Assembly: GCA_021399445.1 (NCBI GenBank)
Contig: JAJTUQ010000003.1
Coordinates: 4,526,001 to 4,590,000, forward strand
Origin: Xylogone sp. PMI_703
Taxonomy: Eukaryota > Ascomycota > Leotiomycetes
Direction: 5' to 3'
Length of the DNA: 64,000 bases
The notes below the pieces were generated by a model. It was not told where the DNA came from, searched no databases, and saw only the letters and a list, made by a program, of their open reading frames with translations. Positions within the stretch are counted from its first letter, which is position 1. Every line of letters begins with the position of its first letter. Positions 22,058-62,019 of the stretch are shown here, one piece after another. Made by a program: the position numbers and the translations under genes.

Positions 22058-22753
22058 CGTGCGCTGCTATGGTATGGATATGCGACAAACAAAGACAAGA
22101 GCTTTTGGTATATTTGACAATATGTAGAAGAAGAAAAGCCAACTGGGTCCCTATGAGTAAATTTTAGACTGTAAGTGCGTAGAGATTTTATTTTATATTC
22201 TACTTGGCCGCCTATAACCTAGGGTATCATCTACCATATATGCTCACCGTAGCCGGTATAGAGCTAATGATGGATTAGTCTTACTCCTTCGTCAATTACC
22301 CCTGATATAGTACAACTGTTTGCCACTAATATAACCTTGTAAAAAGCTCTTGAATTATTACTGTTTAAGAGGGTTTCCTTTATTTCCTTTACAGAACTAA
22401 TTCAATTATTCGATTAATTATAAGGAATAAAGGGGATTAAACTTTAGGTATCGATATTTCGGTAATTCAGAGGCTTTAGATTCTTGTTGTAGTTAAACTA
22501 TAGAGAGCAATAGTCTGCAGAATCTCACTATGATGAGATGAGTATTTCCGGTACATGACCAACCCCTGGAACTTGCGCCCCAGAACCCTTTCTTAGCGTC
22601 TCCACCTGGGAAAATTGCCCCACGCAGTAATTGGCGCCAAAGCGTTGATATTTGCGAAATTCCGATTGCTGAGGAGACTGATTCTCTGGATAGCTTCCTT
22701 ATCATTGATATTTGCGGATCCTTCTCTGCTCGCATTCTCCACCACCGGCAAAG
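22058..22753. promoter_or_regulatory. Divergent promoter of monooxygenase and Zn2Cys6 factor
   Basis: AT-rich 696-bp region between two start codons. It could let the factor control the monooxygenase, but no CGG pair was picked out with confidence. Confidence 0.4.
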
Positions 22754-24935: not shown

Positions 24936-25809
24936 ATTGGGAGGCCTGGGGTTCTGGGCCTTGGCACTCTGTCATCAGATACGACGTAGACAGAAGGTAT
25001 GAGCACATGAGCATCGACATTGGCCTCGACATTGATTCTTATAAGTCTCCTATGCACAAGTAGAGCGGTGCCGAAAGTCAAGATGTCACCAACATGCTCT
25101 TCGCGCTCTGATCCATGGATTCAAGCTCTCATCACTCTATCTTTAGTGCAAAGCACGTTAATAATGCCATCGATGGAACAAATCGTGAACCAATTCAACT
25201 AGTTGTTAGGAGAGGTTTAGCGGAAAATAGGTTGTAAAGTTTTTCTGATATAAAGATCGAATTTAAATGTGATGTATATCCAGAAACACGCCATCCCTCT
25301 TAACTAAGTTAATAAGATTCACTTTTCACAACCCATTGCAAATACAAGCTCAGCAAACATTCAGGCAACGTCAAGGGTCTCTTTGAACCGCCTTAAAAGA
25401 CATCTTGTCGAGGCATAGTCTATTAGGTAAACGGCTCGGCCGCTGATCTCCTTCTATTCACTAGGATCCGTTATTGTTCGCCCCTTACACAATTCTATTA
25501 AGCTACGAAGCTAGGCATCTCGTAACAAGTAGACTAGCTAGTAATGACGAGCGTAGCTGCTGCTGAGAGGTCACATTGAGTCTTCATTTCCAAAGTTATT
25601 GTCGGAAGGATCATCTAGCTTTATAAACTACTCTATCTCATTCATGCGACAGAATCAATCGTAGGTATTCAGTCGCCTTCCTAGCTGAGGAGTAAGAAGA
25701 TCTAATGGGGGACGTTATATGATCCCCACGATCCAAGGCTCGTGCACCACGTCCGAGTTTCCCATATACAGTGACAACAACATATTAAACAAGAGAGGTA
25801 GATCAAACA
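24936..25809. other. Convergent intergenic, nothing recognised
   Basis: Region between the 3' ends of the Zn2Cys6 factor and the old yellow enzyme. No gene, repeat or RNA is recognised. Confidence 0.6.
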
Positions 25810-27112
25810 TCAGTCTACACCCTCAGTTACGCTGACTTTACTCCTCTCCTTCTCCCACTCCTCACTCACGCCAAACCCAAGATATCCCTCCGCACCAGCA
25901 GGCTCATAGAAGAACTCACGCTTATACATGCTCGGCGCAATCCCTCTCTGAATTCGGAAAACGAGATCTGGATTGGAAGTAAAGAACCGCCCCATGGCCA
26001 CAGCCATATTTTGTCCTGCACAGTCCACATCAACAAGTTTCTTTGCACTTTCGGCCGTATAACCTCCAGCAAGGATAACTGCCGATGTAGTACTTTTCCA
26101 CAAGTCGACGAATGGCTGGTTGAGATTCTCCTCTGATCCTGTTCGCCGCGAGTGGGGGTCGCCAGCCAGAGGAGGTTGGATGAGATGGAGGTATGCAAGA
26201 TTCAGTTTCTTCAGCTCACTGATCAGATGCGTGAACTGAGGGAGGGTTCTCTCCTGCATGCCCATGCCGCGGAATGTGTTCCAGGGGCTGAAGCGGATTC
26301 CGACTCTATCTGACCCAACAGCGTTGGACACGGCTTTGACGACTTCGAGAGGAAAGCGAGATCGGTTTGGGATGCTTCCTCCCCAGTCATCGGTACGTTG
26401 ATTGACAACGTCTTGGATGAATTGGTCGATTAAGAAACCATGTGCTCCTAATTCCAGACATGTATATGAGAAACAACCCGTCGCACATTAAAGAAGATGA
26501 CACACCATGTATTTCAACGCCATCAAAACCCGCAACATTGACGGCTTTCTTAGCCGCCTCGGCCCAATCGCGGATTGCTCGCTGAATATCCTCTTCAGTC
26601 ATCTCGACTGGCGTCGGCTCATCGGGACGATGGACTATGGAATCTCCATACTTCATCACTGGTAATGGCACTGCAGAGCTGCTAAAGACTGGTCCCGTGC
26701 CATCTCGATCGCGGAATTCCTTGATCGCTGCTCGTCCTTGGCAATACAACTGGATAAATATGAAAGATCCTCCTAAGTACATTATATCAGCATTTGTGAA
26801 ATTAAAGATGCAGTATGGGTGTGCTTGCTTACGTTCATGTACAGCATCAACAACCCTCTTCCACGCCGAAACTTGCTCATCAGTCTCTAACACCGGCGTT
26901 ATTCTTCCTCCTGCTGCCCATAGGCTAACCGCCGTGGCTTCGGTAATCAGTAGAGTGCCTGGGACTGATGCCCGCTCGCCATAGTACGTAGGCACAATAT
27001 CGAGGATCTTGTGCTGTTCGTCAGTGCGATATCGTGTGCAAGGAGCCAGCACGATCCGGTGGCTCAATTTGATGCGGCCGAGTTGAAGAGGTTTGTGTAG
27101 AACACTCTCCAT
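25810..27112 (-). CDS. NADH:flavin oxidoreductase (old yellow enzyme family)
   Basis: Three exons, 27112-26833, 26772-26506 and 26447-25810; 394 aa, normal for fungal OYEs. The frame is open 48 codons further upstream, but the start is placed at [12 protein letters not shown] because family members begin just before the FMN-binding KPLQLGRI strand. Motifs: [25 protein letters not shown], and [18 protein letters not shown], the substrate-binding His/Asn(His) region formed across the second splice; the C-terminal phosphate-binding [12 protein letters not shown] is present. FMN enzyme reducing activated C=C bonds or involved in secondary metabolism. It is near a monooxygenase, an MFS and a Zn2Cys6 factor. 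Confidence 0.9.
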
Positions 27113-28357
27113 TTCTTTGGTAGTGAGTGTCTGCCTCTCTCGGAGGCACAGGATGCCATAAGAAGAATTTAGTGTTGTGTATACCGCGCTGTGGCTGACT
27201 TGGGGGGAACACATCCGGTCAAGTGAAGACGGAAAGGTACTGTACGTACCCGACATCTATCCGCCATTGGGGACTCTATCGGCGCAACTACAGTGGGTGT
27301 ACTTAATAATCCCCGATTGATTGATAATATCATTATCCTTTAATTATTAGAATAAGTTTTTAATTCCAAAAACTTTTTGATAGCCAAAATGTTTAGTTTA
27401 AACTAGATTAGACTGTCTTCCAAATGGTTAATCTCAAAATTAACCAATTGGATTAAACTATATAGTCTCGTCTAAAAGGTCTACAGTCTCAAAGATAACC
27501 TCTAAAAGCAAGTCCAACTTAGACTAAACTATATAGTCTATAGTCTGATGGTCTAGTCTTTAAAAACAGTTTCTAAAAACCTTTATAGTTTAGACCAAAC
27601 TGGACCGTTAGCTAGTCTAAAAAGGACTAAAGAGCTTAAAAGGGTTAATTGAATTTTGATAGTTTAAGATATATGAGAGAGTCAAGACTCAAGGAGGTTA
27701 AGGAGAGTCGGGCGCGTAATAATAGCACTGTGACCGTACTATGCAAGGCTGTAGAGCAACAATAATGATCATAACCAACTACGTCATATAATACAATTAG
27801 CAATATTACAATGTTTGTACGCGCATACCCAATTATAAGAGACAGATCTGACTCTAATTATCTAGATAAAAAGAAGGGAAAATTGTTGTTGTATTGCCTA
27901 CCGCTTCACCCTTATATAGGGGCTCGGTGGGTTCGGCGGTGGAATAATTACAAAGATATGTAGGCTCGGTTTCCTTACCACATTATCTTTATGCTTTAGT
28001 GAATAATATTATTCTATAGAGTTAATCATAATTAATTGAATTTAATCATACAAGATATTATAGCATTATAAAAATTACTATGAAGTAGCTAATAATATTA
28101 TTTCTTTGAGAGTGTTATATTTGGAACCGTTTAACTATATTCAGAATAGTATTATATGTAATCTGATTATTTAAGTTATTTAGGTCTTATTAGCGGGAAG
28201 AATCTAGAAGTAATATGAGGGTAATATAGAGAAACACTAAGTATAAAACCAAACCTGCCGTCTCTGGAATCCGAAAGAATTCTAAGCATCAGTTCTCTTC
28301 AGTTTGATCACAGAGGCAATCAGTATCACCAGTTTTATAATGCTAGAATCATTCAGA
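27113..28357. other. AT-rich intergenic region with short motif repeats
   Basis: No gene is seen. Between about 27340 and 27640 the motif TAGTCTA or its complement recurs about ten times, and TAAACTATATAGTCT occurs twice (27454-27468 and 27525-27539). From 27800 to 28250 it is very AT-rich. This could be a decayed repeat. Confidence 0.5.
27340..27640. repeat. Clustered TAGTCTA-type motifs
   Basis: Short direct and inverted copies of TAGTCT/AGACTA dominate this stretch, including a 15-base direct repeat 71 bases apart. It looks like a degenerate or mutated repeat element; no transposase frame remains. Confidence 0.4.
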
Positions 28358-43634: not shown

Positions 43635-46600
43635 ATGGCCGACAGACGCAGTAACGCTCGAAGTGGTAGACTGCGGAATCTGTTCACCGGCATCCTCTCT
43701 GGAAAGCAAAGTATCACCACTACAAATGCAAGCCTATTCCTAGAAGCAATATGCGATCAGACAGATCCCACAACATGTGTCCAAAGGCTTATTAGTAGCG
43801 CTGGAGGACTACATGCGTTGAAGTTAGCACTTTGGAGCAATACATCGCTGCCATTTATCAACAACCACTTCGCGAATCTTCTTAAATATCTTCAACCTCC
43901 AGAGTTAAAGAGTATTTGTGGAGGTGCTGTTTTACGCCAAGTCATTTGTGAAATTGTCGAGCCTCCTCTCGCTTGGAATGCGCTGGTCGCGGCTGTAAAA
44001 TCGAGGGAGGCCAACGACAGTGCCTTAGACGGATTCTCATGGCTCCTCCTACAGCTTGTCACGTCTTTGCCTGTCAAGCAGGTGCTTGTGTATTGTGAGA
44101 TTATTAGAGACCCTGCGGTTTACGTTCAACTTATTGCATCTCCACTGGAACACGTTCGCACCAGAACACATAGAATAATCCATATTGCCCAGACTGTTAC
44201 GACAACCCATGAACCAAGTATAGATGGGCCAGGGGGCCGTCATGATAATGACTTTGCAGAGATTCAGAAGATTGCTATCCTCCCCACTCGGGACGAGCTT
44301 GAAGCCAAAAACCCTTTCCTACGTCGGGCGACTGATGTTCATGAGGATGAAAGCAGATCGACTAATCTGGCCTTGCATATTGATAATCAGTTTCGACTGC
44401 TCCGAGAGGATATGCTCCGTGAACTACGTGAGGAGATACAGAGTGCTACCAAATCCAAAAAAGGGCGTGGAAGGGGACTGTGTATCGAGAACTTACGTAT
44501 ACACAATGTTCTCTGCGACGAACGTGATCCTTGGTCCTTTCAGTTTCTATGCAAGGATGATCTCTCCCAATTGAAAGGAAAAGAAACCTCATCTCGTAAG
44601 CGCTTCATCAAAGAGAATACAAGATTCCTGAAGCACCAATCCATAGCATGTGTAATGGTGGAGCAGTCTTTGATAACATTAGCAACGTTGGTGCGAAACT
44701 ATGATCTTCTGGTACAGACTCCCCCGATTATTTGTTTACAAATTCCTGGAGAAGCGGCACAGAAAGTTATACCAGTATTACTCACAAACACAATTAAAAT
44801 CATTCAGTTAAACACTGCTGTATTCTCATATGAACCTGTTCTCAAGCAGCTGCAAGAAATCAAAGAGTTATCGTTAGAGAGTGACATTCTACATTGGAAA
44901 CGTGGAAGCGATATACCAGCCCCTTCATACTCACTGTCGAAAGAAATTACCCAAACTTTAATCAGTATTGAAAAGGACCATACGAAAGACCTTTGCGGAG
45001 TTCTGGATCTCAAGAAGCCGACAAAGCTCGATAAAGCGCAAGCGACATGTTTCATTGCTGGCCTTCGCCAGAGAGTAAGCTTGATTCAGGGGCCTCCAGG
45101 TACCAAGCTTAGATATACTTTAAGCACTTTCGTACCGTAGCTAATATATCGAATAGGGACCGGGAAGTCATTTATTGGATCATTGATTACAAAAGCAATC
45201 CATAAGCACTCCTCAGAGAAGATCCTAGTTGTGTGCTACACTCATCATGCTCTTGACCAATTCTTGGAAGATTTGTTGAATTTGGGAATACCTGAGACCG
45301 ATATGGTTCGCCTAGGGTCCGCTACTAGAGCAACCGCTCGAACGGAGGCACTTTCATTAAAGGAGATGCGACAGTCTATCAGAATCAACCATGACCAATG
45401 GAAAATGTTGAATTCACAGAAAGATCGGGCTAGGGAAGATGCCCAAAATCTTCACAAAATGTTCCCAGAGTTAATAGCTAAATGGCAAAATTCCGATATA
45501 ATGGAGCACCTTGAGTTTAAAGCAGATGGTCCTCCATTTTTCGAAGCATTTTGGGTGCCCCAGGAGGAGGACGGCTGGGATCGAGTAGATAATAGGGGCA
45601 AAGCTGTTGATGAATTCTACCTGCTTAACCAGTGGTGCCGGGGATTAGATGCAGGAATATATAAAGGAATGGTTGAGGAGACATTTGAAGAGATCTGGGA
45701 AATGAATAGTCAAGAGCGGGAACAGCTTATGAACGGCTGGTTTTCTGAAATGCTACAGGAGCGCACATCTAGATTCCACGAAGCAGGAGTGAGTTATGAT
45801 GCGTCGCTTGATAAAATTCAAGCCGTCTATATGGAGAAAGACCTTCAAGTAATGCGAGGGAAGCGCATAATTGGATGTACCACGACGGCTGCAGCAAAGT
45901 ATGTCAAAACCATTCAGTCAATCTCGCCTGGAGTACTTCTTGTTGAAGAGGCTGGGGAGATATTGGAAAGCCATGTCCTTACGGCTCTGGGGCCAGAAAC
46001 AAAACAACTGGTCTTAATTGGCGACCACAAACAGTTACGCCCGAGAGTACATTATGATCTCAGCGTAGAAAAGGGAGATGGTTACGACTTAAATCGCTCG
46101 CTGTTTGAAAGACTTGTCCTCAAAGACTATCCTCATCATGTCCTTTATCAACAGCATCGTATGCGGCCGGAACTCTCAGCCCTTGTGAGGCAAATAACAT
46201 ACCCTGAGCTTGTGGATGCCCCAAGCACTCGCGGCCGGCCTGACTTGAGAGGATTTTTGGATAATCTAATATTCGTAAACCACAGTCAAGCAGAGATCGA
46301 ACTCCAAGGCGTTCCGGACTGGAAAGACGGCGGATCAACCTCATCGAAGAAAAACTTGTTCGAGGCAAAGATGACGCTTAAATGCGTTCGTTATCTTGGC
46401 CAGCAGGGTTATCGGACGGATAATATTGTCATATTAACTCCTTACCTTGGTCAACTACGACTCCTACTTGATGAGTTGAAACAAGATAATGACCCTGTGC
46501 TCAATGACCTCGACTCGTATGACCTAGTTCGTGCTGGACTGATGCCCGCTGCATCGGCAAATGTGAAAAAGCCGCGAATTCGGATATCCACAATTGGTAA

Positions 46601-49600
46601 GTAGTAAGTCTATGTAAGAAGACATGCTAATAGAAGTGTGCACAGACAATTACCAAGGCGAAGAGAGCGATATAGCGATAATTTCCTTGACGAGAAGTAA
46701 CCCTCGAAATGATATTGGATTCATGACAGCCCCCGAGAGATTGAACGTACTTCTATCCAGAGCCCGAAACGCGCTGATTATGATTGGTGATGCGGAAACC
46801 TTCATGAATTCCCGTAAAGGGAAAGATCTATGGAAACGCTTTATAGGAATTCTTAAGGAGGGTCGCCATATTTATGACGGCTTTCCCGTCAAATGTGAAC
46901 GCCACCCGAATCGACACGCTCTCTTGAGTCGGCCTGAAGCCTTTGATAAGGAGTGTCCTGACGGAGGATGTTTGGAACCATGGTAAGGACACATACTTAG
47001 TTAATAATTAATTTACTAATTCATTATTCCTAGTGGTGCTACACTGAAGTGTGGCATTCATAAGTGTCCACAATACTGCCATCAGCTCTCCGATCACTCG
47101 AAAATGAATTGTACACACGTCATGGAGACTAAATGTGACAGGGGCCATCTTAAAAGGTGGAAATGTCACGAAAGCCAACCGACTGCCTGTCAAGCATGTG
47201 TACGTGAGGACCAAAAGCGGCAGAGAGAGCTTCAAGCAGAACTAGAACGGCAAGCCAAGCTTGATCAAGAACAAGCAGAACATCTAGCAAAAATGGCTGA
47301 CCTTGACCGCCAAATTAAGCTTGCAAGAGAGCTTGTAGCAAATGCTGTGGCAGCAGAGCAAAATGCTCAAGCATTGGAACAAAAGAGATTAGATCTTGAG
47401 GCCGCAAAGCTTGCCGCAACTCGAGCACTCAATAAGCCACCGCAAACACCAGCGAAGGTACCACCAGCTAAACATTCCTCATCCAAATCTTCGAGCCCCG
47501 ACCCCATAAGATCCAATGCTGCTGCGGACGAGAAACAACATAGAGCGGATCAGAATATACCACAGGATGTAAAGGGTGAATCAGAAAAGGAATGGGAACG
47601 ACAAAAGCGCATAGAGGGGGCCTCAAATGATGCGCTCGATGCTCTTATGGGACTCACTGGTCTAGAAGAGGTGAAATCTAAAATTTTGACCATAAAATCC
47701 AAAATCGAAACTGTCCAGAGACAAGGTACAGATATGAAGAAGGAAAGGCTTGGCCTGGTCCTGCTCGGAAATCCGGGAACTGGTAGGTGTCTATCCCACA
47801 GTTTATAGCATCACTAATACCCACTAGGAAAAACCACTGTTGCACGTATCTATGCTCAATTCTTATCCTCTGTTGGAGTGCTGCCCGGAACGGAATTTAT
47901 TGAGACGACAGGAGCTCGACTAGCAAATGAAGGAGTTGCCGGAGCAAAGAAGCATATTGATAAAATTCTAAGTGCTGGTGGGGGGACACTTTTCTTAGAT
48001 GAAGCCTACCAGTTGGCCAGTGGCAACAATCCTGGCGGCTCCTCTGTTCTAGATTTCCTACTTGCGGAGATCGAGAACCAAGTGGGAAAGATAGTCTTCA
48101 TTTTGGCTGGTTACAATACGCAGATGGAAAAATTCTTCGAGCATAACCCAGGATTCGATAGTCGCATGCCTTATCGTCTTTGCTTTGCTGATTATTCTGA
48201 CTCTGAGCTCCTGATAATGCTCCATCGTCTTATTGAGAAGAAGTATAACGGTCGTGCTAAGGTAGAGGATGGATATGGAGGGTTATATGCCCGGGTTGCG
48301 ATCAGACGCTTAGGGAGAGGCCGCGGGCGTGAAGGGTATGGGAATGCCCGTGCATTAGAGAACGTCTGGGCAAGAGTCACGGACCGACAAGCCAGTCGGA
48401 TACAGAGAGAACGTGCTGCTGGTCGTAGACCAGATGATCTTTTATTTATAAAAGAAGACTTGATTGGGCCTGAGCCTTCGGGTGCAATTCGAGAAAGTAC
48501 TGCATGGAAAGAACTACAGGCACTAATCGGTCTTCAAGCTGTTAAGGATTCTATAAAGGGGCTTGTCAATAATTTACAACTGAACTACATTCGGGAGCTT
48601 GACGAAAAGCCACCTGTTGAAGTTAGTCTCAACCGCATTTTTCTTGGCTCACCAGGAACTGGTAAAACCACAGTCGGAAAATTATACGGGCAACTTTTAG
48701 CTGATATGGGAATGCTATCGAAACGAGAAGGTAAGAACTTTGCTATCTTTTGTTTCTCCCTCTGCCCCTCAGTCTTTTGGCGGAATTACCTTGTGAGTCA
48801 CTAGCATGACAAGCAACGACCATCGACCATATAAGCTATTGATGGACTAATATTCGATAGTTGTCATTAAGAATCCTTCAGATTTCATGGGAAGCGTCAT
48901 TGGAGAATCCGAAAAGAATACTAGGGCAATTCTCAAATCGACCGAGGGCAAGGTTCTGATTATCGACGAGGCGTATATGCTCTACTCAGGTACTCAAGGA
49001 GTGGGGAATACATCAGATCCCTACAAAACCGCGATTATCGACACAATCGTAGCAGAAGTCCAAAGTACTCCAGGGGAAGATCGATGTGTGCTTCTACTAG
49101 GCTACAGAGAACAAATGGAGGAAATGCTTAAGAATTCGAATCCCGGCCTCGCGAGGCGATTCCAATTAAACTATGCATTCCACTTTGAGGATTTTGATGA
49201 CACACAGTTAAGAGAGATTCTAAAACTAAAACTAAAGAAACAAGGTCTCGACGCAACAGAGGAAGCCAAGGATGTCGCCATCGAAATACTTTCAAGAGCC
49301 CGACATAGACCCAATTTTGGCAACGCTGGCGAAGTCGAGAATTTGATCTCTCATGCTAAGGCTCAAGAGCAGAAGAGACGTTCTTCTGGTAACGTGATCA
49401 ACACTGACCCTGATATCTGCTTCCTACCTCAAGACTTTGATAAAAATTTTGATAGGGCAAGCAGAGCTTCCCAGAATCTTCAGGAGCTCTTTGCAGACAT
49501 GGTAGGTTCTGCGGAGCTAATTGATAAGTTCGAAAAATATCAAAGAATAGCCGCTACTATGAAAGAACGAGGGATGGATGCAAGGTCACAGATTCCCTTT

Positions 49601-51033
49601 AATTTTATTTTCAAAGGCCCCCCTGGTAAGTACCTAACATCTACATTATTAATCAGATTTCATTAATGAATTTAGGGACTGGTAAAACAACTACGGCTAG
49701 GAAGATTGGCCAGGTGTTCTATGACATGGGCCTATTATCGACATCTGAGACTCTCGAACGATCAGCATCTGATCTCATCGCTGGATATGTCGGCCAAACT
49801 GGTCCAAAAACGATTAGTGTTCTTAAAGATGGTTTGGGAAAGGTCCTTTTCATAGATGAAGCGTACAGATTGGGTGAAGGCCATTTCGCAAAGGAAGCCA
49901 TTGACGAATTGGTTGATAGTCTGACAAAACCTCAATTCCGTGGTAAACTTGTCGTTATTCTAGCAGGATACACCGAAGACATCAACACTCTCCTTAAAGT
50001 CAATCCTGGACTATCAAGTAGGTTTCCAGACGAAGTTGTCTTCAGAAATATGACAGATGAGGAGTGTTTGAGTCTTCTTCGGCTGGAACTAAAGGGTGCG
50101 GGTATTGAATTCTTCCAGGAAGATCACCAATCTGAGGACTACAGAAATATTATGGCGCTGTTTGGGAGGTTATCTTGTCTTCCTAGCTGGGGAAATGGTC
50201 GAGATATCAAAACCTTATCTAGGACACTCATCGGGCATACTTTTGGAAGTGTAAAATCTAAATCCGAAGCTCTTGCGGTGTCTTGTTCGGATGTTATTGC
50301 TGCTCTTCAAAACACGTTGGAAGTCCAGCTTGCTCGGCAACATACGAAGTCTAACGTAGAAAGCTCGTTGAATGCTGCACGGCCAATCTTTGATCTACCT
50401 ACTCAAAACTTTTCACCCCAACCAACTAAAACCTCTCTATCATCTGCTGTGAAGGATAATATCACTAGGGCTAATGAAGAACAGCAAGCCGTTGACCAAA
50501 GCTTTGTATGTGGTGAGAATAGCAAAGAGGTATTTCAGGCTGAGGAGACATCACAAGAGCCCGAACGCGACCCAGGTGTATCAGATGAGATATGGGCACA
50601 GTTGCAAGCCCATATAAGAGCGAATGATCTTGCACAAAAACACTCGGAGATTACTATTGCCAACCTAGAGCATCAGGTAGCCACTTCCAAGGCAGAAGAA
50701 GAAACTAGTAAGCAAGCCACAACTCTTTCTGAGAGTATAGTGCAACCGCCAACTGCTCCCGCCGGTGACGACGAAGAAGCGAAAGAGCGAAAACGTAAGC
50801 ATGAAGAAGCAAGACTTCGCGCTTTGAAAGCTCACCTGGCCGCAAAAGAAGCCGAAGAAAAACTGCGCAAGGCCAAAGAGCTGAGAGATAAGGAGAGAGC
50901 TAAAGAGGCTAAGATCCAAAAGAAGTTGAGGGATATGGGCGTTTGTATTGCAGGATTTAGATGGATCAAGGAGGCTTCTGGGTACAGGTGCGCGGGGGGC
51001 AGTCATTATATTAGTAACTCTCAACTACGGTAA
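43635..51033 (+). CDS. NFX1-type zinc-finger SF1 helicase with three CbxX/CfqX-type AAA domains
   Basis: Seven exons: 43635-45099, 45157-46596, 46646-46982, 47034-47782, 47828-48730, 48861-49625, 49676-51033; 2338 aa. Residues 1-480 are an N-terminal region like that of ZNFX1 helicases. The UPF1-like SF1 helicase has Walker A GPPGTGKS (about 486-493), VEEAGE (about 750) and QGEESD (about 972). An NFX1-like Cys/His region follows (about 1081-1115, CGATLKCGIHKC), then a charged coiled coil (about 1120-1200). Three AAA modules of the CbxX/CfqX type carry GNPGTGKT/LDEAYQL, GSPGTGKT/IDEAYML and GPPGTGKT/IDEAYRL; all Walker motifs are intact. A Lys/Glu/Ala coiled coil ends the protein. Nearly every intron interrupts a Walker A motif. 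RNA surveillance or silencing is suggested by animal ZNFX1; the AAA role is unknown. Confidence 0.9.
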
Positions 51034-51778: not shown

Positions 51779-53393
51779 TTAGGATTCACTTTTTGCCTCT
51801 GCTACTCTCGCAGCTTCTTCCCTCTCTTTTTTCCTCCATTCCGCAGCGAATTTCCACTGGATCAGAGGGCCGATTAATGCCACTAGTTGCGCAGCGACGC
51901 AAATTGTGAATGCTACGCCGACTCCAACACCATCGATCATAGGCATGATGAAGCTTGTACCACCGGCAGCAAACAAGCATCGCGCAAGATTCAAACTAGC
52001 ACTAGCTGCCGCACTCTTATCGTGGAAGATGTCAACTAGGTAAGTCATGATGACAGATTGCGTGGATACAGCCGTCCATCCTGTTATAAAGGTTGACACA
52101 ATAGGGACAGCAATGTGTACCTTGTGAGGATAGTTGATGGTCCAGCCAAAGAGGATGATCGAGCAGCATTGCAGAATGGAGAAAATAGGCACGAGGCGAA
52201 GACGGGCTTTCTCCAAGGGAAAGTCATCGTCCCGGTTGGCTTGAGAAACATTCCCTTGTTCATTATCAAATGAAGCTTCATATTTCATCTTGATACGCTG
52301 ATAGTCGGCATTCAGAATCTTGCCAGTGAGCAGTGTCCCGATCATCGATCCTACACCATTGGCGATGAATGTGAGACCGATGTGGATTTCGGACAAACCA
52401 TAACGATCCTTGAAAAGAGAGGACATGGCAGTGATGCTCATCTGCCAAACTGCGTAATAAACTGCGAGGAAGAAAATGATTGGAGCGGCATACTTGCTAA
52501 AGAGTACGCGAAACGGACTCAAAAGATCAACAGATTTCTTCGCTGCTGGCTGAGACTGATCACCCACTGCCTGTCGCCACTGAACTTTTGTTTTTTTCTG
52601 GTAAACATTCAGCGGAAACTTCATGTAGATATTGGATGGAGTCCAGCTCCCATTCGCGACGATTGATCGTAGTGTCTCAGGCAGCAAGAAGATAAGCAAG
52701 CAGAGAAAAACGCCGCTGTAGATTGCCAGGAACCAGAAGATTGCTTTCCATCCTAGTGACCCAGCAATAGCGCCTCCAATGACTGGCCCTACGGCGACAG
52801 GAACGAGCAGTCCTGCTTGGAAAATCCCCATGTAACCTCCACGTTCAGCACGAGTGGTGAGATCGCCAATTACACCAGACCCAATAGCAATAGTACTAGC
52901 GCTGCCGGTGCTCTGTAGACATCTTAGAACAATAAGTGTCGCATAGTTTTTGGTTTCCGCAAGGCCAATGCACGCTCCAAGAAAGACAAGAAATGTACAC
53001 GCATATGCCGTCCGACGGCCTTTTACATCAGAGATAGGACCCCAGAGACTTGGTGCAAGGCCTTGGAATATGAGATATGATGTGACTGTCAAGCTGACAA
53101 GCTCGATAGAGACATTGAGGTCGTTCGCAATTGTTGGCAAGGCAGGGAAGTAAATGTTTGACGCGAAACCAGAAACTGTTTGGCATGTCAGTACGACCTG
53201 AGATAACTGTTATGAATTGGCAAAACGCACAAGTTGCTGCGGTGGAAACAATAGTAATTATTAAGGCTTTTTGTCTTTTATCGAATATGCTATAAGGTGG
53301 CTCGGGAGCGGGTGCTGTGGGCGATCTCACGGCTGTTGTTGTTGATGTTGTAGAATCAGACTGAACTGGTTCTGTACTTTCTACAGAAGGCAT
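51779..53393 (-). CDS. MFS multidrug transporter, DHA1 (Qdr/Dtr1-like) type
   Basis: Two exons, 53393-53231 and 53175-51779, 519 aa. The hydrophilic N-terminus has a Ser/Thr run. The splice restores STAATF-SGFASNIYFPALPTIANDL, the classic first-helix motif of fungal DHA1 drug:H+ antiporters. The A motif reads GPISDVKGRRTAY, and VLRCLQSTGSASTIAIGSGVIGDL (positions after helix 4) and VGPVIGGAIAGSLGWKAIFWFL are the antiporter motif C region. About 12 membrane segments. It is head to head with the isochorismatase-like gene; the shared promoter contains two inverted CTACCGGAGTT copies. Likely exporter of a toxic metabolite or drug in the phosphatase cluster. Confidence 0.9.
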
Positions 53394-53759
53394 GATGTAT
53401 GTTAATCTATTGATTGAATGAGTGCTTGAGAAAACGAATGTTCTATCAGAATCAAAATGATGGATGAGACCCGAGAAAACATTGAAATATATGAATAGTC
53501 ATTCTGCTGCATGGGGGTGGCGGTTATAGGGTTGCTACCGGAGTTCCGACCCTCTCTCGGGGTTGAGCGCCCGGTAGCCCAGGAGCTGAGGCCTCAACTC
53601 CGGTAGGGTCGACAAGGGCTGAGGATATTTTGGCCGCAAGTAATAAATGCATTCGCATAGAGATCTTCTTGTATCTGAGATCAAAAATATTCAGTCCTCT
53701 TCATCACTCCTTTGAACTTTCGTTCATAAATCCAAATAGCTCTTACTCATATAACCACC
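53394..53759. promoter_or_regulatory. Divergent promoter of MFS exporter and isochorismatase-like gene
   Basis: 366-bp region between two starts. It carries the GC-rich block 53530-53610 with inverted CTACCGGAGTT / AACTCCGGTAG, surrounded by AT-richer DNA. Confidence 0.7.
53535..53606. promoter_or_regulatory. Inverted CTACCGGAGTT...AACTCCGGTAG site (Zn2Cys6-type)
   Basis: CTACCGGAGTT at 53535-53545 and its exact reverse complement at 53596-53606. The left copy continues into CGGAGTTCCG, an inverted CGG-N4-CCG of the kind bound by Zn2Cys6 dimers. AACTCCGG recurs in the PP2A/PP1 and factor promoters. Confidence 0.6.
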
Positions 53760-54419
53760 ATGGCCCTATCTATGAGCTTCGGCGATAACTATGCAGTCCT
53801 TAACTTAGATTGGATGTCAGTTCTTGTCAACGCCGTCAAAGACACCACCGAAGGACGGGCTTTCATCGAAAATTGTTCTAAGTGGAACGATGCCGTGCAT
53901 CAGAAATCTCCTCGCCCCCTTACAATTTTCTCCGCCCTCTCCTTCAATCCTGGCCAGCCCGAGCTGCAACGCGGCTCGCCGTTTGCCAACTTAATCGCCT
54001 CATTCGGTGAATTCACAATCGGCTCCCCCGAAGTGCAGATAGATAGCCGGTTCAAAGTTGACGAGCATGATATCGTCCTCCAGAAGACCAGATGGTCTGC
54101 CACCATGGGTAATGCTCTAGAACAGATCTTGAAAGCGCAAGATATCAAGACAGTGATAATTGTATGTAGTGTCTATCATTTAGTTAATTTGTACTAACTA
54201 GTATAGTCTGGCGTGAGCCTTTCTGCTGTTGTAATGTCCACTGTCTATCGATTATTCGACCTGGACTACAACGTATATGTTATTCGAGATAATGTGTTGG
54301 AATTACCAGTCGACCAAACCGCAACCGTCTCGAAGGTGATGCTAGATATACTACTACCTAAGATGGGGTACAAGGTTGTTTCACTTGATGAGGCCCTGAA
54401 ATTGCTAGAGCGGTCTTGA
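53760..54419 (+). CDS. Isochorismatase-fold hydrolase (cysteine hydrolase superfamily)
   Basis: Two exons, 53760-54161 and 54207-54419 (45-bp intron, ACTAAC branch), 204 aa. The fold is read from NYAVLNLDWM (Asp17 at the catalytic Asp position), IDSRF...IVLQKTRWSA (Lys109 at the catalytic Lys position) and the SGVSLSAVVMSTVYRLFDLDYNVYVIRD block formed by splicing. The position of the nucleophilic Cys (GxxTxxCV) holds Val142, so a standard cysteine-hydrolase mechanism is unlikely; this Cys-less variant is seen in some fungal paralogues. Divergent from the MFS exporter with shared motif sites, so probably part of the same regulon. Substrate unknown. Confidence 0.8.
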
Positions 54420-54765
54420 GAGGTCTTTGATTATAATTTGAGTGATCTTATAAATTATTCCAAACGTTTGAATATCAGAATTAGGTATATATATGCATCG
54501 TGTACAAAATATCTGGCTGGTAATGATAAAGCAATTTTTGGTTCATCGGGTAGAGGAAAGAGCTTTGATAGAGTTTTTAGGTATTTATAAGATAAAAGAA
54601 TAAATAGCAAAGCGAAGATTTTGAAACCATACAAAGCATCTATATTTAATATTCTTTCTAGTGGCACCGTCCCTATCTAGTATGTATTAAAGGTGGAATA
54701 TTGTGCCTCCTGATAGAATCCAGAACCGCCAAGGCAAACGCCACAGTTAGGACTTCATATGCTAC
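54420..54765. other. Convergent intergenic, nothing recognised
   Basis: Short AT-rich spacer between the hydrolase and the PP2A 3' ends. Confidence 0.7.
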
Positions 54766-56008
54766 CTATAAGAAATAATCAGGTGTCCGTCGTTTCACCG
54801 TAGGCTCACCAGTTCTTGGAGAAGGGTCAAACTGTATGCTGTGGATAAAGGTTAGCATATTGATTCAACCCACTGTTCAGGTTATCGCTAAAGATGAACT
54901 TACAATTTATAGTTCAGATGTTCATCAATCTCTACAATTGCGGCTTGGTTACCGCATCGATAGCAGTAGTTCGGCGCTGGTAAAAGATTAGTATCTTAGT
55001 CCTCCAAGCTAATTTGTATTCAAAGAATGTACCAGAGAAAATCGTAACTACTTGTCTGTCATGGGACCACTGGTAGCCATCCATAACCATCTGGTGAGCC
55101 CTGGCGACAAGACTCAAACCATTGGTATGATTGAATGTCTCTGAGACATCCTGCCCAAAGGTGTAGCCAGCTCCACGAGGAGAGAGTCCCCAACCAGCCC
55201 TCTCATCCGGATCACTCCAAAGGAGATCACACATAGGACCATCATGTGGAGGCTCTTGGACGCGATCAAGAGAACGAACATCATCCAGCGTATTGAGCGA
55301 TGGGCTCAACCCTCCATGGAGACAGAAGATCTGATTCTCAACAAGAGCAGTAATGGGGAGATAGTCGAAAAGATCGGTAAAGTATCTCCAGACATTAGCA
55401 TTGCCATACTTGCGCAAACATTCATCATAGAAGCCATAAACCTGTGTGATCTGGCGCGATTCGTGATTCCCTCGAAGAATCGTAACCCGCTTCGGATACC
55501 GAATTTTGAGGGCGACGAGAAGAGATACTGATTCAACAGAATGGTAGCCACGGTCAACGTAGTCACCTAGGACAATTATCGGGTCAGCCTGCTGTTCGGG
55601 TCGTCCGTAACAGATACTTTTCTCTTACCCATGAAAAGGTAATTCGTATCTGGACATCGCCCACTGATACGGAATAACTCTATTAAATCATGATACTGGC
55701 CATGTATATCTCCACAAACTGTGACCGGGCAATTCTAATAGGGTTATCAGTTCGGTCCTGGTGGGATCGGTGTCGGTGGTCCCATGGCCCCCGCGCAACA
55801 CACATACGACTGGCTGCACGTTCGACTCATCTTGTACTACTTCCTTTGCCTGCGTTAAAAATATGGTCAGGTACTGTTTGTATGATAGATAGAGCCTGCA
55901 ACTTACCTTCTCACACAATTCTTGCACGTCGTCCTCGGAAAGAGGCTTACAGTCCATCAAACTTTCAATCCACTTCTCAACGGTCTGAATAGACCGAGAC
56001 TCGGCCAT
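54766..56008 (-). CDS. PP2A catalytic-subunit paralogue (Ser/Thr phosphatase)
   Basis: Six exons: 56008-55907, 55849-55808, 55734-55629, 55566-55033, 54976-54904, 54838-54766; exactly 309 aa, the family length. All metal/catalytic motifs are intact: [54 protein letters not shown], and the C-terminal TPDYFL tail used for carboxymethylation and B-subunit assembly. It is more diverged than a housekeeping PP2A should be: [21 protein letters not shown] instead of GYYSVE-type, and [10 protein letters not shown] instead of the CPRxGEP usual in fungi (from memory). Head to head with a PP1 paralogue across 756 bp. Self-resistance copy is an inference. Confidence 0.92.
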
Positions 56009-56764
56009 AGATCCAATGCTAGGGCTCTCAGATCGCTTTTGGATGCCACCTCAGATATATCAGCTAGAATCAAACTCACTATACAGTTATCAAGTAGAAT
56101 GAGTGGAGTAGTCATGCACAGATATGGGGCGAAGAAGCTATGTTCGTTTCAGAGTTCAGCGTAAATATATACCAAGCGATGACAGAGAATAGTCGAAGAG
56201 TGTCCCCTAGAGCAATAAGCTAAGCAAGTTAGCTTAGTTGCATGTTTTTGGAGAACAGAGATGGTGGATATGAAGCTTCAAAAAAAGAACGATACAATTT
56301 CGTTACAAGATGTGATGCGATCGCGTAGATTGTTTCGCTAGCGATGTCGTCACTGTGACTCGGTATCCCGAGTCAATTCCGACACCGGCCTTCAACTCCG
56401 GGAGCTTATGGAGACATCTACCGTAACTAGCAATACATGCATGTCATTATCAAGCGAATATGGATTTCCCCCCTATTTACAAAGTAGCATCCGAAGTCAT
56501 GTGGTTAGCCAAGATATATCTCAATGTCTAGATTTCAGTGCCTCAAAACAGATGGGTAAATGCGTGCCTCTGAAAATTCCCAGCAGACGATTTCACAGAA
56601 AGAGTTCTACGCCACAAACTTTCCTTTAGACTTTTAGTCTGTAATCTTTACTTCAAAGCATATGCACTACACCCTCTTACTGTTGCCCCTCCTTACTAGT
56701 GTTGCCCACTGTCAAGTAGTGTTTTCTCCATCTTTACCAAAACTAGACAAGTAGACAAAACGCC
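56009..56764. promoter_or_regulatory. Divergent promoter of PP2A and PP1 paralogues
   Basis: 756-bp region between the two start codons. A GC-rich block at about 56340-56410 holds the palindromic GACTCGG/CCGAGTC site and an AACTCCGG copy. Confidence 0.65.
56357..56401. promoter_or_regulatory. Palindrome GACTCGG-N4-CCGAGTC plus AACTCCGG
   Basis: Arms at 56357-56363 and 56368-56374, spacer TATC; AACTCCGG at 56394-56401, inside TCAACTCCGG as in the other two promoters. A candidate for the same Zn2Cys6 regulator. Confidence 0.55.
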
Positions 56765-57912
56765 ATGAGTGACACGGATATGGCCAATTTGGACTCTATC
56801 ATCGAGAGATTACTTTGTGTGAGGGCTCACCGACCCGGCAAACTTGTCCAGCTTTGGGAGTCCGAAATACGTTACCTCTGTCACCAAGCACGCGAAATCT
56901 GCCTATCTCAACCAATATTACTGGAGCTTGAAGCACCAATCCTGGTAAGCCCTTGGACCCCAGTAACTCCTTTGTGTGGGCACATGGCATAAATAATTCA
57001 GAACAATTGCTAACTGGGGATTGACAGATCTGTGGTGACGTTCATGGTCAGTACTATGACCTCTTACGATTGTTCGAACACGGCGGCTATCCACCAGAGG
57101 CAAACTATCTATTCCTTGGTGACTATGTTGACCGTGGTAAGCAATCCGTCGAATGCATCTGTCTCCTTCTAGCCTTCAAAATCAAGTATCCCGAAAATTT
57201 CTTCATTCTCCGCGGCAATCATGAATGCGCGTCTATCAACCGAATATATGGGTTCTATGATGAGTGCAAGAGGAGATACAGCGTCAAACTCTGGAAGACA
57301 TTTATAGATTGCTTTAACTGTTTACCAATTGTTGCTATGATTGAGGATAAGATACTCTGTATGCACGGAGGACTCAGTCCAGATTTAAACACGATAGAGC
57401 AAATTCGTCGGATTATGCGTCCCACAGATGTAAGTTCTTTCACTCTTAAGATATATGATTCGACATCCATTACTTACTATCATAGATTCCTGACTGTGGT
57501 CTGTTATGTGACCTCCTCTGGGCGGACCCAGACAAAGAAATCACGGGCTGGAGCGAGAACGACCGCGGTGTCTCTTTCACATTTGGTCCTGACATTGTCG
57601 ATCGCTTTATACAGAAACATGGGGTAGATCTGATTTGTCGCGGACACCAGTGCGTGGAAGATGGTTATGAGTTCTTCGCGAAGAGACAGCTAGTGACACT
57701 ATTCAGTGCACCAAATTACTGTGGGGAGTTCGACAATGCAGGTGCTCTGATGAGTGTTGACAAGGACTTGCTTTGTGCTTTTCAGGTACGTGGACAGGCT
57801 ATCTTATTCCCGCATTACAACTGTAGATTGCTAACGGTGTTGTAACCAGATCTTCAGACCAGCCGAAAAGAAAACAATGATGTCGCAAATTATGAGATCA
57901 GGCAAGTCTTAG
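56765..57912 (+). CDS. PP1 catalytic-subunit paralogue (Ser/Thr phosphatase)
   Basis: Four exons, 56765-56944, 57028-57429, 57486-57785 and 57850-57912; 314 aa. All phosphatase motifs are intact: [45 protein letters not shown]. It is recognisably PP1 (LDSIIERLL, [30 protein letters not shown]). Differences from canonical fungal PP1, as I recall it, include [14 protein letters not shown] where ICRAHQVVEDGYEF is usual, close to the substrate/toxin-contact Arg, and a short [11 protein letters not shown] end instead of the longer basic TPPRKQ tail. Divergent from a PP2A paralogue. A diverged second copy fits target-duplication resistance, but specialised signalling is also possible. Confidence 0.92.
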
Positions 57913-58612
57913 TGCCTCATATTTTCTTCATAATAGAGATCAGGTGCAAACGAGACGCTTGGCAATCAGTATACTCAGAGAGGAGATATCTATAGTAAAA
58001 CATTGGATGCTATCCTTCCTCGATCATGGTAGCATTTTTACATCGCCGTCTCAGAAAGCTTGCATATACTTCTTATAATATCGCTTATAGAGAACATTGT
58101 ACATGAATTAGTGGCTATCTATGGGAAGCAACAAAACAAACCGGAGCCTCTGAAAATTTAGATTTGAATGTGTATAACAGCATCAGTAAAGGATGGCGCT
58201 GAATGTGACGCCTGTATGAACCACTACTCAAATGCACAATGCATAAAGTTATGTGCATGCCAGGAACAAGGTTCGGAAGTAGTTGCCGACGTAGCGTGAC
58301 TTTCGGTTATGCTAAACCTAATGCATATAGCGCAGGCGAGCGCTCAACTCCGGCACGTTCGGAGTTCCGGAAGGCAAAACAACAGCCGGAACTGGCATGC
58401 ACGTCATGATACTTTCGAATTGAAAAGGGGCCCGTCCGTCCCACAGAAACTTCCACGCGATTAATCGTTTTATGCCATGATCACTTACCTAATTACTAGC
58501 ATCCCTTAACTTAACTGGCTATGGAGGCCCGCTTCACGTGATTCCCCTTTTCCATTCTTTCCAAATAATTTTCCAAATATTGGCTTAGACGAAGAAAAAT
58601 ACTGGAAGAGGG
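57913..58612. promoter_or_regulatory. Upstream region of Zn2Cys6 factor
   Basis: 700-bp region; no gene. At 58344-58370 it holds the third AACTCCGG/CGGAGTTCCGG block, suggesting autoregulation of the downstream factor. Confidence 0.6.
58344..58370. promoter_or_regulatory. AACTCCG-N7-CGGAGTT inverted site with CGGAGTTCCGG
   Basis: AACTCCGG at 58346-58353 and CGGAGTTCCGG at 58360-58370; the arms AACTCCG and CGGAGTT are exact complements with a 7-base spacer. Same elements as in the MFS/hydrolase promoter. Confidence 0.6.
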
Positions 58613-59872
58613 ATGAGAACGTCAAGATATTCCACTTCTCGGCAAAAGGCTTGTCAGCAGTGTTCTAGTGCCAAAGCCAGATGTGATCGCAGGACTGGAA
58701 ATGGACGCTGCATAAGATGTACGCAGCGAGGTCTGCCATGCGCTTATCCTCATACAGATGCGGCCGAAGGGCTGAGTAGGACCAACCTGGATCTCGATGA
58801 GGCACAACCGCCCAGCCCTTTCTCCATGTCAGACTCATCTTTCACGGGCCCTGAGAATCGCGTTCCAGATACACCAAGCACAGCAGTACCTGTATCAAGG
58901 ACCTTTCCGTTTGAAAATGATTCGATCAATGCCGCCGCGAGTGTATCTGCCGGGTCAGAGGCAATGGATTTCTCCGGTCTTGATTTGGTTTGTCCCATTA
59001 ATGCTGACGATATCAAGAATCGCTGGATTCAAGCATATATTCCTGTTCCTGGACAGATAATCAAAATGTATCCTGCCGGCGTCACCTCTTTCATTTACCG
59101 CATCCTAAAGTCGTACACTGCTGTAGCAGTAAGTGGCCGTGGCACCTTACCGTTCATCCATTCCAAACAGATGGTAGCACAACCCACGGGATCACCACTT
59201 ACTACTTGCTTAAGCTTGGTCCGAATATGCTCAAACGCCCTACCAGGCAGCAAAGATGCCGCAGCTAGCGTTATTCAGCGAGAAATGCATGGTCTGTACG
59301 AGCTCCGGGACGAATACAATGACGAGATTCTATTTGCCGCGTTCCAGGCTTATCTGATATATTCTATGGTCCTTTTCTTCCAACTCAACCAATCTTGCAA
59401 TGATCACTTCCGCACCATTATGACAAATCTACAGGAGCTAGCTTGTTCTTCAGCTCGGCGAGGACTTGTATGCGCAGCAGACCAACGAAGAGCTCGACCA
59501 AGATGGGAAGAGTGGATCGTAGCTGAAGCTAAACGAAGAACACTCTTGGTGATGTATTTGTTCGATAGTATTCTTTCAACTCAAGAAGGCCTCCCTACCT
59601 TCCTTGGAACCGAATTACAAGGCCTGCCGACTCCGGCGAACAAACTCTTGTGGCAAGCACCCACTCGTTATGAATGGGAGAGAGAATACAATATTTACAT
59701 GGCGGAATGGATGGAAGGGGGTCTCACAATTGATGAGCTTTGGCCTACTCCTGCCGATCTGGACGAGATTGGTATTGCTAGGAGACGTGCGAGAGTGGAT
59801 CGCTGGCTGGAGAATCTTGACGAATACGGAACTATGCTTTACGCGATTATGAGATGTACTCATGGTGATTAA
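58613..59872 (+). CDS. Zn2Cys6 transcription factor, likely cluster regulator
   Basis: Single exon, 419 aa. The N-terminal Gal4-type binuclear zinc cluster (residues about 14-43) has all six Cys: CQQCSSAKARCDRRTGNGRCIRC...C within KACQQC...PCAYPH. A Ser/Pro-rich linker and a helical fungal-specific region follow, with a weak match to the short regulatory domain of cluster factors (RRTLLVMYLFDSIL; LLWQAPTRYEWEREYNIYMAEW). No coiled coil is obvious next to the cluster. Its own promoter and those of the MFS/hydrolase and PP2A/PP1 pairs share CGG-containing inverted sites, so it is the best candidate to bind them; this is inferred from proximity and motif type. Confidence 0.85.
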   Translation: MRTSRYSTSRQKACQQCSSAKARCDRRTGNGRCIRCTQRGLPCAYPHTDAAEGLSRTNLDLDEAQPPSPFSMSDSSFTGPENRVPDTPSTAVPVSRTFPFENDSINAAASVSAGSEAMDFSGLDLVCPINADDIKNRWIQAYIPVPGQIIKMYPAGVTSFIYRILKSYTAVAVSGRGTLPFIHSKQMVAQPTGSPLTTCLSLVRICSNALPGSKDAAASVIQREMHGLYELRDEYNDEILFAAFQAYLIYSMVLFFQLNQSCNDHFRTIMTNLQELACSSARRGLVCAADQRRARPRWEEWIVAEAKRRTLLVMYLFDSILSTQEGLPTFLGTELQGLPTPANKLLWQAPTRYEWEREYNIYMAEWMEGGLTIDELWPTPADLDEIGIARRRARVDRWLENLDEYGTMLYAIMRCTHGD

Positions 59873-60448: not shown

Positions 60449-62019
60449 ATGACGAATCCCATGAGAGATAAGCAAGATCAAGTAGTGACGGAAGAGGACG
60501 CTCCAAAGAAGGAACGACAGCATGACGTAGAAGATGAAGTGGCCCAGCCTATAAAAGAGGAATCAGAACATAAAATGAACAAAGAGCAGGAGACCCAAAA
60601 CCCCCCACTGGACCCCAACTTCTTGAATATGGCAATAGACATAGTTAAGAAGGCCATAGAGGCTGATACAGCGAGGAGATACAGCGAAGCGCTTGCTCTC
60701 TACCAACGCTCTTTAGAGCTATTTATGCTTGCATTGAAGCGGGAATCAAATCTTAGATCGAGAGAATTAATTCGCAATAAGGCGACGGAGTATATGGACC
60801 GAGCGGAAAAGCTAAGCAATTATCTCTCAGGCTCCTCTGGAAAGCCAGGGTCTTCCAATAACGAAAGCAAAAAGCAGCAGGAGCATGGTGAATTTGCTGG
60901 TGATGTATCACTAGAAGTACCCGAAGTGAAGTGGGAAGAAGTCGTAGGGCTCGACGCAGCTAAGCAAGTGTTGAGAGAAGAAGTGGTCTTTCCGGTCAAA
61001 TTTTCCAATATGTTGAAAGGGAAGCACTTACCATGGCAGGGAATTCTTCTGTTCGGGCCGCCAGGATGCGGAAAGAGCCACTTACTCAAGGCGGCTGCAA
61101 TGGAGGCGCATGCTTCTATTGTGAATGTGAGAAGTTCGTGTCTTGCTAGAGAACGTTCTCCTACTGATAGTCAACGGTAAAGTCTCTCCAACCTGTCCAT
61201 GTATAGAATATCTGACTTGAATTGAGTTTGGTTGAGCATATATTTGCTATGGCGGAAGAAAATAGCCCCTCTATTATTTGTGTCGACTATATAGAGACTC
61301 TCTGCGAATCTCAAGAATCTGAAAGTTGTCGTAGATTAAAGGCTGAAATGATTGCGCGTGGGAAGAAGCCACATGGAGTGGACTCGAGGGTATTTATTAT
61401 TGGAATAACACACTCCCCTTGGAAAATCAACGACGAGCTCTTGAAGTGCTTTGGGAAGAAGGTGCCCATCTCCTTGCCAGATCTAGCAGCCCGAAGTAAA
61501 CTATTCGAAGCAGCCATTCAAAGCGAAAACAGTTCTTCGACTGAGAAGAGCTCAACTTCCAACATCACGGTAGATGAGTATAAAAAGCTTGCAGAAAGAA
61601 GCGAAGGATATTCTCCGAGTGATATTCACCATATAGTCGATGAGGGTTTCGCAGGGCCAATAAGAGAGGTACAGAGGGCCACACATTTCAAGAAGGTAAC
61701 TATCACGTCCACAACTCTTTCCATCTTGCGTATTTGTAAACTAACAATATAGATTATGGATACTTCTCTTCAGAGCTCCACCCAAGAGCGTCTCATTGTT
61801 TGTTCCCCCGATGACGCGAATGCTTTGAAGATGACATGGCTAGAAATAGATCCTCCAGAGAAGCTTTATGTTCCGCCACCTCAATTCAAACATTTCTATG
61901 TGGCTCTGCGAGCATCCAGACCTTCTGTTTTATCAGAGGAAATTAAGAAGTACGAAGATTGGGCGGATACGGTGCTTGCTGACTACGTCACGGTCGAGTA
62001 TAACTCTGAGGAAGCATAG
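60449..62019 (+). CDS. Vps4-like MIT-AAA protein with degenerate ATPase site
   Basis: Three exons, 60449-61176, 61227-61695 and 61753-62019; 487 aa. After a charged N-terminal extension of about 50 residues comes an MIT three-helix domain (about 57-127), then a Vps4-type AAA module (VKWEEVVGLDAAKQVLREEVVFPVKF-like start). Walker A GPPGCGKS (203-210) is intact. The Walker B segment reads IICVDYIETL: Tyr264 replaces the catalytic Glu. The pore-loop KW pair is missing, sensor 1 has His305 (GITHSPW) for Asn, and the arginine-finger RRRFxKR region is LKCFGKK. The C-terminal Vps4 tail (WADTVLADY) is present. It should bind ESCRT-III tails and perhaps nucleotide but not hydrolyse ATP, so it could act as a regulator or inhibitor of ESCRT. 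Confidence 0.85.

Follow-up and report, generated by a model that had tools for sequence, protein, structure and literature searches.

Extra PP1 and PP2A catalytic subunits in a candidate resistance cassette of Xylogone sp. PMI_703

Why should a fungus keep additional copies of two essential protein phosphatases, PP1 and PP2A, side by side and next to an exporter gene? The arrangement occurs in a window of 64,000 nucleotides from Xylogone sp. PMI_703 (the whole stretch of DNA analysed; contig JAJTUQ010000003.1, positions 4,526,001 to 4,590,000). An initial annotation had proposed it as a self-resistance locus, in which divergent PP2A and PP1 genes accompany an exporter, an isochorismatase-fold gene and a Zn2Cys6 factor. 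All five genes are indeed in place, intact and clustered at 51,779–59,872. The MFS exporter gene (51779..53393, minus strand; PF07690, E 4e-44) encodes 519 residues. An apparent frameshift in this gene was ruled out, as a single 519-residue frame results once the 55-bp intron at 53176–53230 is removed. The exporter's nearest relative in the genome (52%) lies at C1:3362622. The isochorismatase-fold gene (53760..54419, plus strand; PF00857, E 9e-26) has an intron at 54162–54206 and encodes 204 residues, which on alignment apparently lack the cysteine that we take to be the usual catalytic one. The PP2A gene (54766..56008, minus strand; five introns) encodes 309 residues ending in TPDYFL, and the PP1 gene (56765..57912, plus strand; three introns) encodes 314. 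A Zn2Cys6 transcription factor gene of 419 codons (58613..59872, plus strand; PF00172 and PF04082) completes the group. Genes of AAA, helicase, ankyrin and transporter types are mixed in the neighbourhood. The G+C content of the cassette is 0.454 and that of the window 0.467, an uninformative difference.

Both phosphatase genes are extra paralogues, because a housekeeping PP1 (locus L010) and a housekeeping PP2A (locus L002) are located outside the window; a search for these genes, advised at the outset, thus establishes that the genome has a PP1 and a PP2A besides the window copies. The further phosphatases are assigned, by reading of their spliced sequences, to PP1, PP2A, PPZ, calcineurin A, PP6/Sit4, PPG and PP5. 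PP4 is likewise assigned elsewhere in the genome, in this case from exon matches only. The early claim that both copies are catalytically intact holds, as every metal-binding and catalytic residue checked is present. The PP1 copy retains D64, H66, D92, N124, H173, H248, R96, R221 and H125, which we take to be the metal-ligand and catalytic set. The PP2A copy retains D57, H59, D85, N117, H167 and H241, presumably its metal ligands, together with the TPDYFL C-terminus. Origin as retrocopies is ruled out: all introns are at housekeeping positions. Recent local duplication is rejected for PP2A (p 2.5e-6); for PP1, a clade of the window copy with the fungus's own PP1 is not rejected (p 0.06).

In trees, both window phosphatases cluster with Aspergillus paralogues, in clades supported at 100/97 and 99/91. 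Long branches underlie the PP1 paralogue clade. In Aspergillus avenaceus the PP1 paralogue and the PP2A paralogue are each carried on a 177,535-bp contig. Among the matches listed (120 rows per list), this is the only species in both paralogue lists, and five other Aspergillus species (A. alliaceus, A. tubingensis, A. piperis, A. parasiticus and A. violaceofuscus) occur in one list only.

The two proteins resemble ordinary PPP-family PP1 and PP2A: they are full length, with every metal ligand and most inhibitor contacts conserved, and their best matches among solved structures are 7qwj and 8a8f for PP1 and 2ie3 and 2ie4 for PP2A. They differ from that family in a single pocket residue each, V250C in PP1 (codon 57651..57653, plus strand) and L243M in PP2A (codon 55088..55090, minus strand). 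The two sites are structurally equivalent: each follows a metal-binding histidine by two residues. Cysteine is present in 4/4 PP1 paralogues, and valine in 118/118 other rows of the alignment; methionine is present in 5/5 PP2A paralogues, and leucine in 116 of the 117 other rows. In the window copies, position 250 is the sole difference among 32 PP1 positions, a list that we take to cover the active site and inhibitor contacts, and position 243 is likewise the sole change among 24 such positions of PP2A. Divergence at inhibitor-contact residues, on which the initial annotation had made its proposal depend, is therefore found in both copies, and at one shared site. Both substitutions are conservative, and the remaining contact residues are unaltered. 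At seven well-conserved PP1 positions, Val250 among them, the four paralogues all leave the consensus. Outside this set of contacts, PP2A position 189, two residues N-terminal of the contact residue His191, is proline in 5/5 paralogues and valine in 115 of 117 other rows (codon 55250..55252, minus strand). Leu243 of PP2A contacts microcystin-LR (PMC2821003), and Val254 of PP5, the counterpart of this position, lines the pocket that binds cantharidin and endothall (PMC4507179). No occurrence of Val250 was found in the open-licence literature searched.

Pocket changes of this kind could also arise without any toxin. Ordinary neofunctionalisation, in which the copies serve substrates of a pathway or life stage and are co-regulated with a transporter, would have the substitutions tune activity, or metal or redox properties, and not toxin binding. 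Cysteine and methionine, the residues gained, both bear sulphur, the catalytic residues are intact, the PP2A copy keeps its TPDYFL tail, and Asp166 and Glu167 are swapped in 4/4 PP1 paralogues as well, all of which suits that explanation. It leaves the change at the same position in PP1 and PP2A unexplained, and it does not account for the exporter's share in a composite promoter site (below). We regard it as unlikely.

The promoters may link the phosphatases to the other genes: in a sequence scan, the motifs of both phosphatase promoters are common to the exporter and factor promoters. Three CGGRRTTSM sites are found in the promoter between the exporter and isochorismatase-fold genes (53539..53602), and the stretch 53539–53566 is a composite, CGGAGTT-N12-CGGRRTTGA. 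The same composite, with two CGGRRTTSM sites, lies between the PP2A and PP1 genes (56373..56400, minus strand), and two inverted CGGRRTTSM sites precede the factor gene (58344..58368). In the 50 Mb genome the exact composite occurs at two places, which are the two divergent promoters of the cassette. It is the fixed 19-bp spacing alone that stands out, with two exact places and two more with one mismatch against 2 for the control, for a motif picked after inspection of these same promoters. Looser forms occur near control frequency genome-wide: CTCAACTCCGG at 22 places versus 25 for the reversed control, YCGGAGTTCCGR at 19 versus 33, the inverted pair CAACTCCG-N(0-30)-CGGAGTT at 4 versus 3, and the tandem pair with gaps of 5–30 at 13 versus 10. 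Such counts by themselves give no guide to dispersed cassette partners. The suggestion that biosynthetic genes elsewhere might bear the same promoter motif found no support, as the genome holds no further exact composite site. The shared sites also bear on the notion that two unrelated duplicates are adjacent by chance, with coincidental motifs and pocket changes. The mixed gene content of the surroundings would allow this. The composite site common to both divergent promoters, the matching pocket change in PP1 and PP2A, and the placement of the A. avenaceus paralogues, each on a 177,535-bp contig, make it very improbable.

Our preferred reading, to which we give a probability of roughly 0.55, is that the five genes form a co-regulated cassette conferring resistance to a dual PP1/PP2A inhibitor, and that no biosynthetic core adjoins it. 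The missing core was anticipated in the initial annotation, which saw no PKS in the window, and no ketosynthase match occurs there; the nearest on the contig is ~0.69 Mb away. No PKS or NRPS domain was detected by Pfam in the 27 non-cassette open reading frames scanned, and the 46-kb left flank was read by eye. Of the self-resistance proposal, then, one part stands: both targets are present as diverged extra copies, altered at a contact position. Taken with the shared promoter motifs, these features lend good support, on the sequence evidence, to the hypothesis that both targets were duplicated for resistance. The 'self' part is not borne out, because there is no ketosynthase within 0.69 Mb, no further exact composite site and no known compound. 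Resistance to a toxin from another organism fits as well.

Could the product nevertheless be made elsewhere in the same genome? PKS, alkylcitrate synthase and dehydratase genes are absent from this locus and present on two other contigs, in clusters at C21:141–165 kb and C3:188–217 kb that also carry FSH1-type hydrolase and PEBP genes. A maleidride-type product of one of these clusters might be what the cassette protects against. Two isochorismatase-like genes lie in the C3 cluster; the cassette protein is only 32–34% identical to their products and scores higher against three others of this genome. Between the dehydratase at C21 and phiI the identity is 82%; phiI is named for phomoidride, a compound not known to act on PP1 or PP2A. 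Both clusters are on other contigs than the cassette, and the exact composite promoter site is absent from both. Rubratoxin A is a maleidride that inhibits PP2A, and the clusters for rubratoxin, scytalidin and zopfiellin include isochorismatase-like genes (PMC8851701). An isochorismatase-fold gene and an MFS gene are thus shared with maleidride clusters; the window differs in having no PKS, alkylcitrate synthase or dehydratase, and PP1 is not a target of rubratoxin A (>200 uM versus 30 nM for PP2A; PMC5754374). Among the 120 alkylcitrate dehydratase matches listed of 6,354, 0 are on a contig equal in length to any paralogue-bearing contig; the list lacks Oidiodendron maius, for which a maleidride cluster is reported (PMC8851701). 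No finding connects either cluster with the cassette, and such an origin is distinctly improbable.

The cassette may be compared with the duplicated-target self-resistance genes of fungal clusters, on which resistance-gene-guided mining is based (PMC6517689, PMC10320164 and PMC12616698). The likeness lies in an extra, diverged and intact target copy adjoining an exporter and a Zn2Cys6 factor. Unlike those genes, the cassette holds two targets, PP1 and PP2A, and no biosynthetic core enzyme was found nearby. The word 'phosphatase' is absent from the main text of all three papers, and the titles and abstract openings listed in searches of open-licence literature do not describe a fungal cluster that carries copies of PP1 or PP2A.

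How would a resistance cassette of this kind work? (i) The trigger would be a small-molecule inhibitor of PP1 as well as PP2A. (ii) The Zn2Cys6 factor, presumably acting on its own cassette, would turn on the exporter and both less sensitive catalytic subunits. (iii) The altered pockets of the cassette PP1 and PP2A are predicted to bind the inhibitor more weakly. (iv) The replacement subunits would then assume the essential functions. (v) The exporter would probably remove the inhibitor, with the isochorismatase-fold protein as part of the set. The source of the inhibitor may be the fungus itself or a competitor. A tentative extension is that the linked PP1–PP2A pair, changed at the same pocket residue, is a stand-alone unit that two distantly related fungi, one Aspergillus species and one leotiomycete, have kept with no coupling to a biosynthetic core; this might point to an undescribed dual inhibitor made or met by these fungi.

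If the resistance reading is true, the pair flags a dual PP1/PP2A inhibitor, and Xylogone and Aspergillus avenaceus would be the fungi in which to search for the inhibitor or its maker. Resistance to one compound would then have required a same-site pocket change in two essential enzymes, and the cassette would show which residue evolution used.

The genome holding the window spans 50.1 Mb in 25 contigs, and the window lies on contig C19 (G000:C19:4526001-4590000). At 51,779-59,872, the divergent PP2A and PP1 catalytic subunit genes described in the initial annotation were found beside an MFS exporter and a Zn2Cys6 factor. The five genes of this cassette encode the exporter (- strand), an isochorismatase-fold protein (+), PP2A (-), PP1 (+) and the factor (+); all retain an open reading frame once spliced. 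AAA-type ATPase genes flank the cassette on both sides: to its left lies a block with a helicase and AAA ATPases in tandem (43635-51033), to its right an MIT-AAA (Vps4-like) gene (60449-61752). At 17779-27256 of the window, a TRI12-type MFS gene is grouped with genes for a flavin monooxygenase and an FMN oxidoreductase, perhaps as a separate small metabolic cluster.

Phosphatases were surveyed across the genome by Metallophos and protein searches, followed by spliced alignments. Outside the window, one more gene each was read as PP1 (C12:3.42 Mb) and PP2A (C20:5.27 Mb). One gene each was also read by us as PPZ, calcineurin A, PP6/Sit4, PPG and PP5, and PP4 is represented by exon matches alone. 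The window PP1 is identical to the housekeeping PP1 at 252 of 311 residues, and the window PP2A to its housekeeping counterpart at 248 of 308. Introns (3/3 in PP1, 5/5 in PP2A) occupy the codon positions and phases of the housekeeping genes, so that the copies derive from DNA duplication; an RNA-derived origin is thereby ruled out.

Substitutions shared by the window copies and related Aspergillus proteins (together, the paralogues) include one in the inhibitor pocket of each enzyme. Among the matches listed, PP1 position 250 is Val in 117/117 non-paralogues, as in the housekeeping PP1, and Cys in 4/4 paralogues. It is the sole change in the window PP1 among 32 positions compared, which we take to be active-site or contact positions. 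All four PP1 paralogues differ at seven positions with at least 95% conservation (101, 103, 153, 166, 167, 236 and 250), of which 250 and 166 are invariant in the non-paralogues listed. At 166-167, Asp-Glu has become Glu-Asp in 4/4 paralogues; Asp166 is found in 118/118 other proteins listed. PP2A position 243 is Leu in 115/116 non-paralogues listed and in the housekeeping PP2A, and Met in 5/5 paralogues. The sole further position conserved to at least 95% at which all five differ is 189, with Val in 115/117 other proteins listed and Pro in the paralogues. PP1 250 and PP2A 243 each lie two residues past a metal-ligand His. PP2A Leu243 is described as one of the residues touching microcystin-LR through van der Waals contacts; His191 is placed in the adjoining hydrophobic pocket (PMC2821003). 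In PP5, the hydrophobic pocket that receives cantharidin and endothall is described as including Val254 (PMC4507179), by our reading the matching residue (two past His252). The self-resistance proposal presupposed both further PP1 and PP2A copies, now located on C12 and C20, and divergence at inhibitor-contact residues, now seen as PP1 Val250Cys and PP2A Leu243Met. These changes are conservative, and are candidates for an effect on inhibitor binding.

The closest relatives were sought among the best 120 of 7,994 scored proteins for PP1 and the best 120 of 7,991 for PP2A. The PP1 pocket change occurs in three of the 120 matches listed, all from Aspergillus (A. alliaceus P0018, A. avenaceus P0030 and A. 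tubingensis P0045). The PP2A change occurs in A. avenaceus P0127, A. parasiticus P0128, A. piperis P0143 and A. violaceofuscus P0191; among the matches listed P0166 has it too, yet falls outside the Aspergillus-paralogue clade. In trees of 33 chosen database proteins each, window and Aspergillus paralogues form one clade (support 100/97 for PP1, 99/91 for PP2A). Support persists in 25-protein trees (PP1 99/96, PP2A 95/89) with position 250 (PP1) or positions 243 and 189 (PP2A) masked. On these masked sets, a clade of window and housekeeping PP2A is rejected (p 2.5e-6); the corresponding PP1 test gives p 0.06. Because of this value, and because long branches meet in it, the PP1 paralogue clade is less secure than that of PP2A. 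By plain identity the window PP1 is no nearer the Aspergillus paralogues (243-252 residues; P0045, 241) than the housekeeping PP1 (252). A. avenaceus P0030 and P0127 are each on a contig of 177,535 bp, and thus almost certainly share a single contig. Among the matches listed, this species alone has both paralogues; the five remaining Aspergillus species have one or the other. A PP1-like protein of Oidiodendron maius, P0059, keeps Val250 and carries C127T, C273G and G274A, presumably at or beside inhibitor contacts; a maleidride cluster has been reported in this species.

The cassette promoters share a motif, CGGRRTTSM. Their three regions (1.8 kb) contain seven sites (3 + 2 + 2), whereas 2,000 dinucleotide shuffles average 0.15 and never reach seven, an enrichment biased by the choice of motif from these same promoters. 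Another 27 sites occur over the other 177 kb read. Tandem sites 5-30 bp apart occur at 13 places genome-wide versus 10 with a reversed control. A 19-bp start-to-start spacing is found at only two of the 13, the exporter/isochorismatase and PP2A/PP1 promoters; one mismatch adds two places, both outside the cassette (control, two). This fixed spacing would be a stronger sign of co-regulation than the motif count. A second Zn2Cys6 gene, 28 kb beyond (C19:4613714-4615476; window ~87714-89476), has three CGGAGTTCC sites around it, on both sides. Its product is distantly related to the cassette factor, at 21% across 449 positions (E 3e-14).

Rubratoxin A is described as a fungal PP2A inhibitor, and several maleidride clusters as including isochorismatase-like genes (PMC8851701); alkylcitrate enzymes were therefore looked for in the genome. 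Two maleidride-type clusters were found. That at C21:141-165 kb (L024-L026) contains two MFS genes, an FSH1 hydrolase, two PEBP genes, a PrpD-type dehydratase, a citrate synthase and a PKS. That at C3:188-217 kb (L029-L032) contains a citrate synthase, an enoyl-CoA hydratase/isomerase, an FSH1 hydrolase, a PKS, two isochorismatase-like genes, a PrpD-type dehydratase, a PEBP gene and an MFS piece slightly below the cut-off. Pfam did not reveal a dimerising cyclase in either. Both dehydratases have relatives in Talaromyces stipitatus: PhiI for that of C21 (82% identity) and another protein for that of C3 (75%). Given these clusters and dehydratases, Xylogone sp. PMI_703 is likely to be a maleidride producer. 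The clusters are only weakly tied to the cassette: they lie on other contigs and neither has the exact composite promoter site (CGGAGTT-N12-CGGRRTTGA). In addition, none of 120 dehydratase matches listed is on a contig the size of a paralogue-bearing one. The cassette isochorismatase-like protein is only 32-34% identical to the two of the C3 cluster, and three further proteins of the genome score higher; the cluster MFS genes are only the sixth, eighth and ninth nearest matches to the exporter. Rubratoxin A is also described as sparing PP1 (PMC5754374).

As the initial annotation stated for the window, PKS and NRPS genes were not found near the cassette. The 27 non-cassette ORFs Pfam-scanned in the window and right flank (versus 314 ORFs of at least 100 aa in 179 kb) lack such domains; they encode transporters, AAA proteins, an FMN oxidoreductase, flavin monooxygenases, a 2-oxoglutarate oxygenase, an alcohol dehydrogenase and ankyrin proteins. 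On C19, ketosynthase matches come no closer than ~0.69 Mb on the right side and ~1.38 Mb on the left. The proposed self-resistance locus thus stands in part: the nearby core enzyme that marks a cluster-borne self-resistance gene was not found in these scans, and the locus is termed a two-target cassette instead. A putative resistance function, which may or may not be self-resistance, is the best supported reading, and the cassette, with its two target enzymes, would work in the manner of cluster-borne self-resistance genes.
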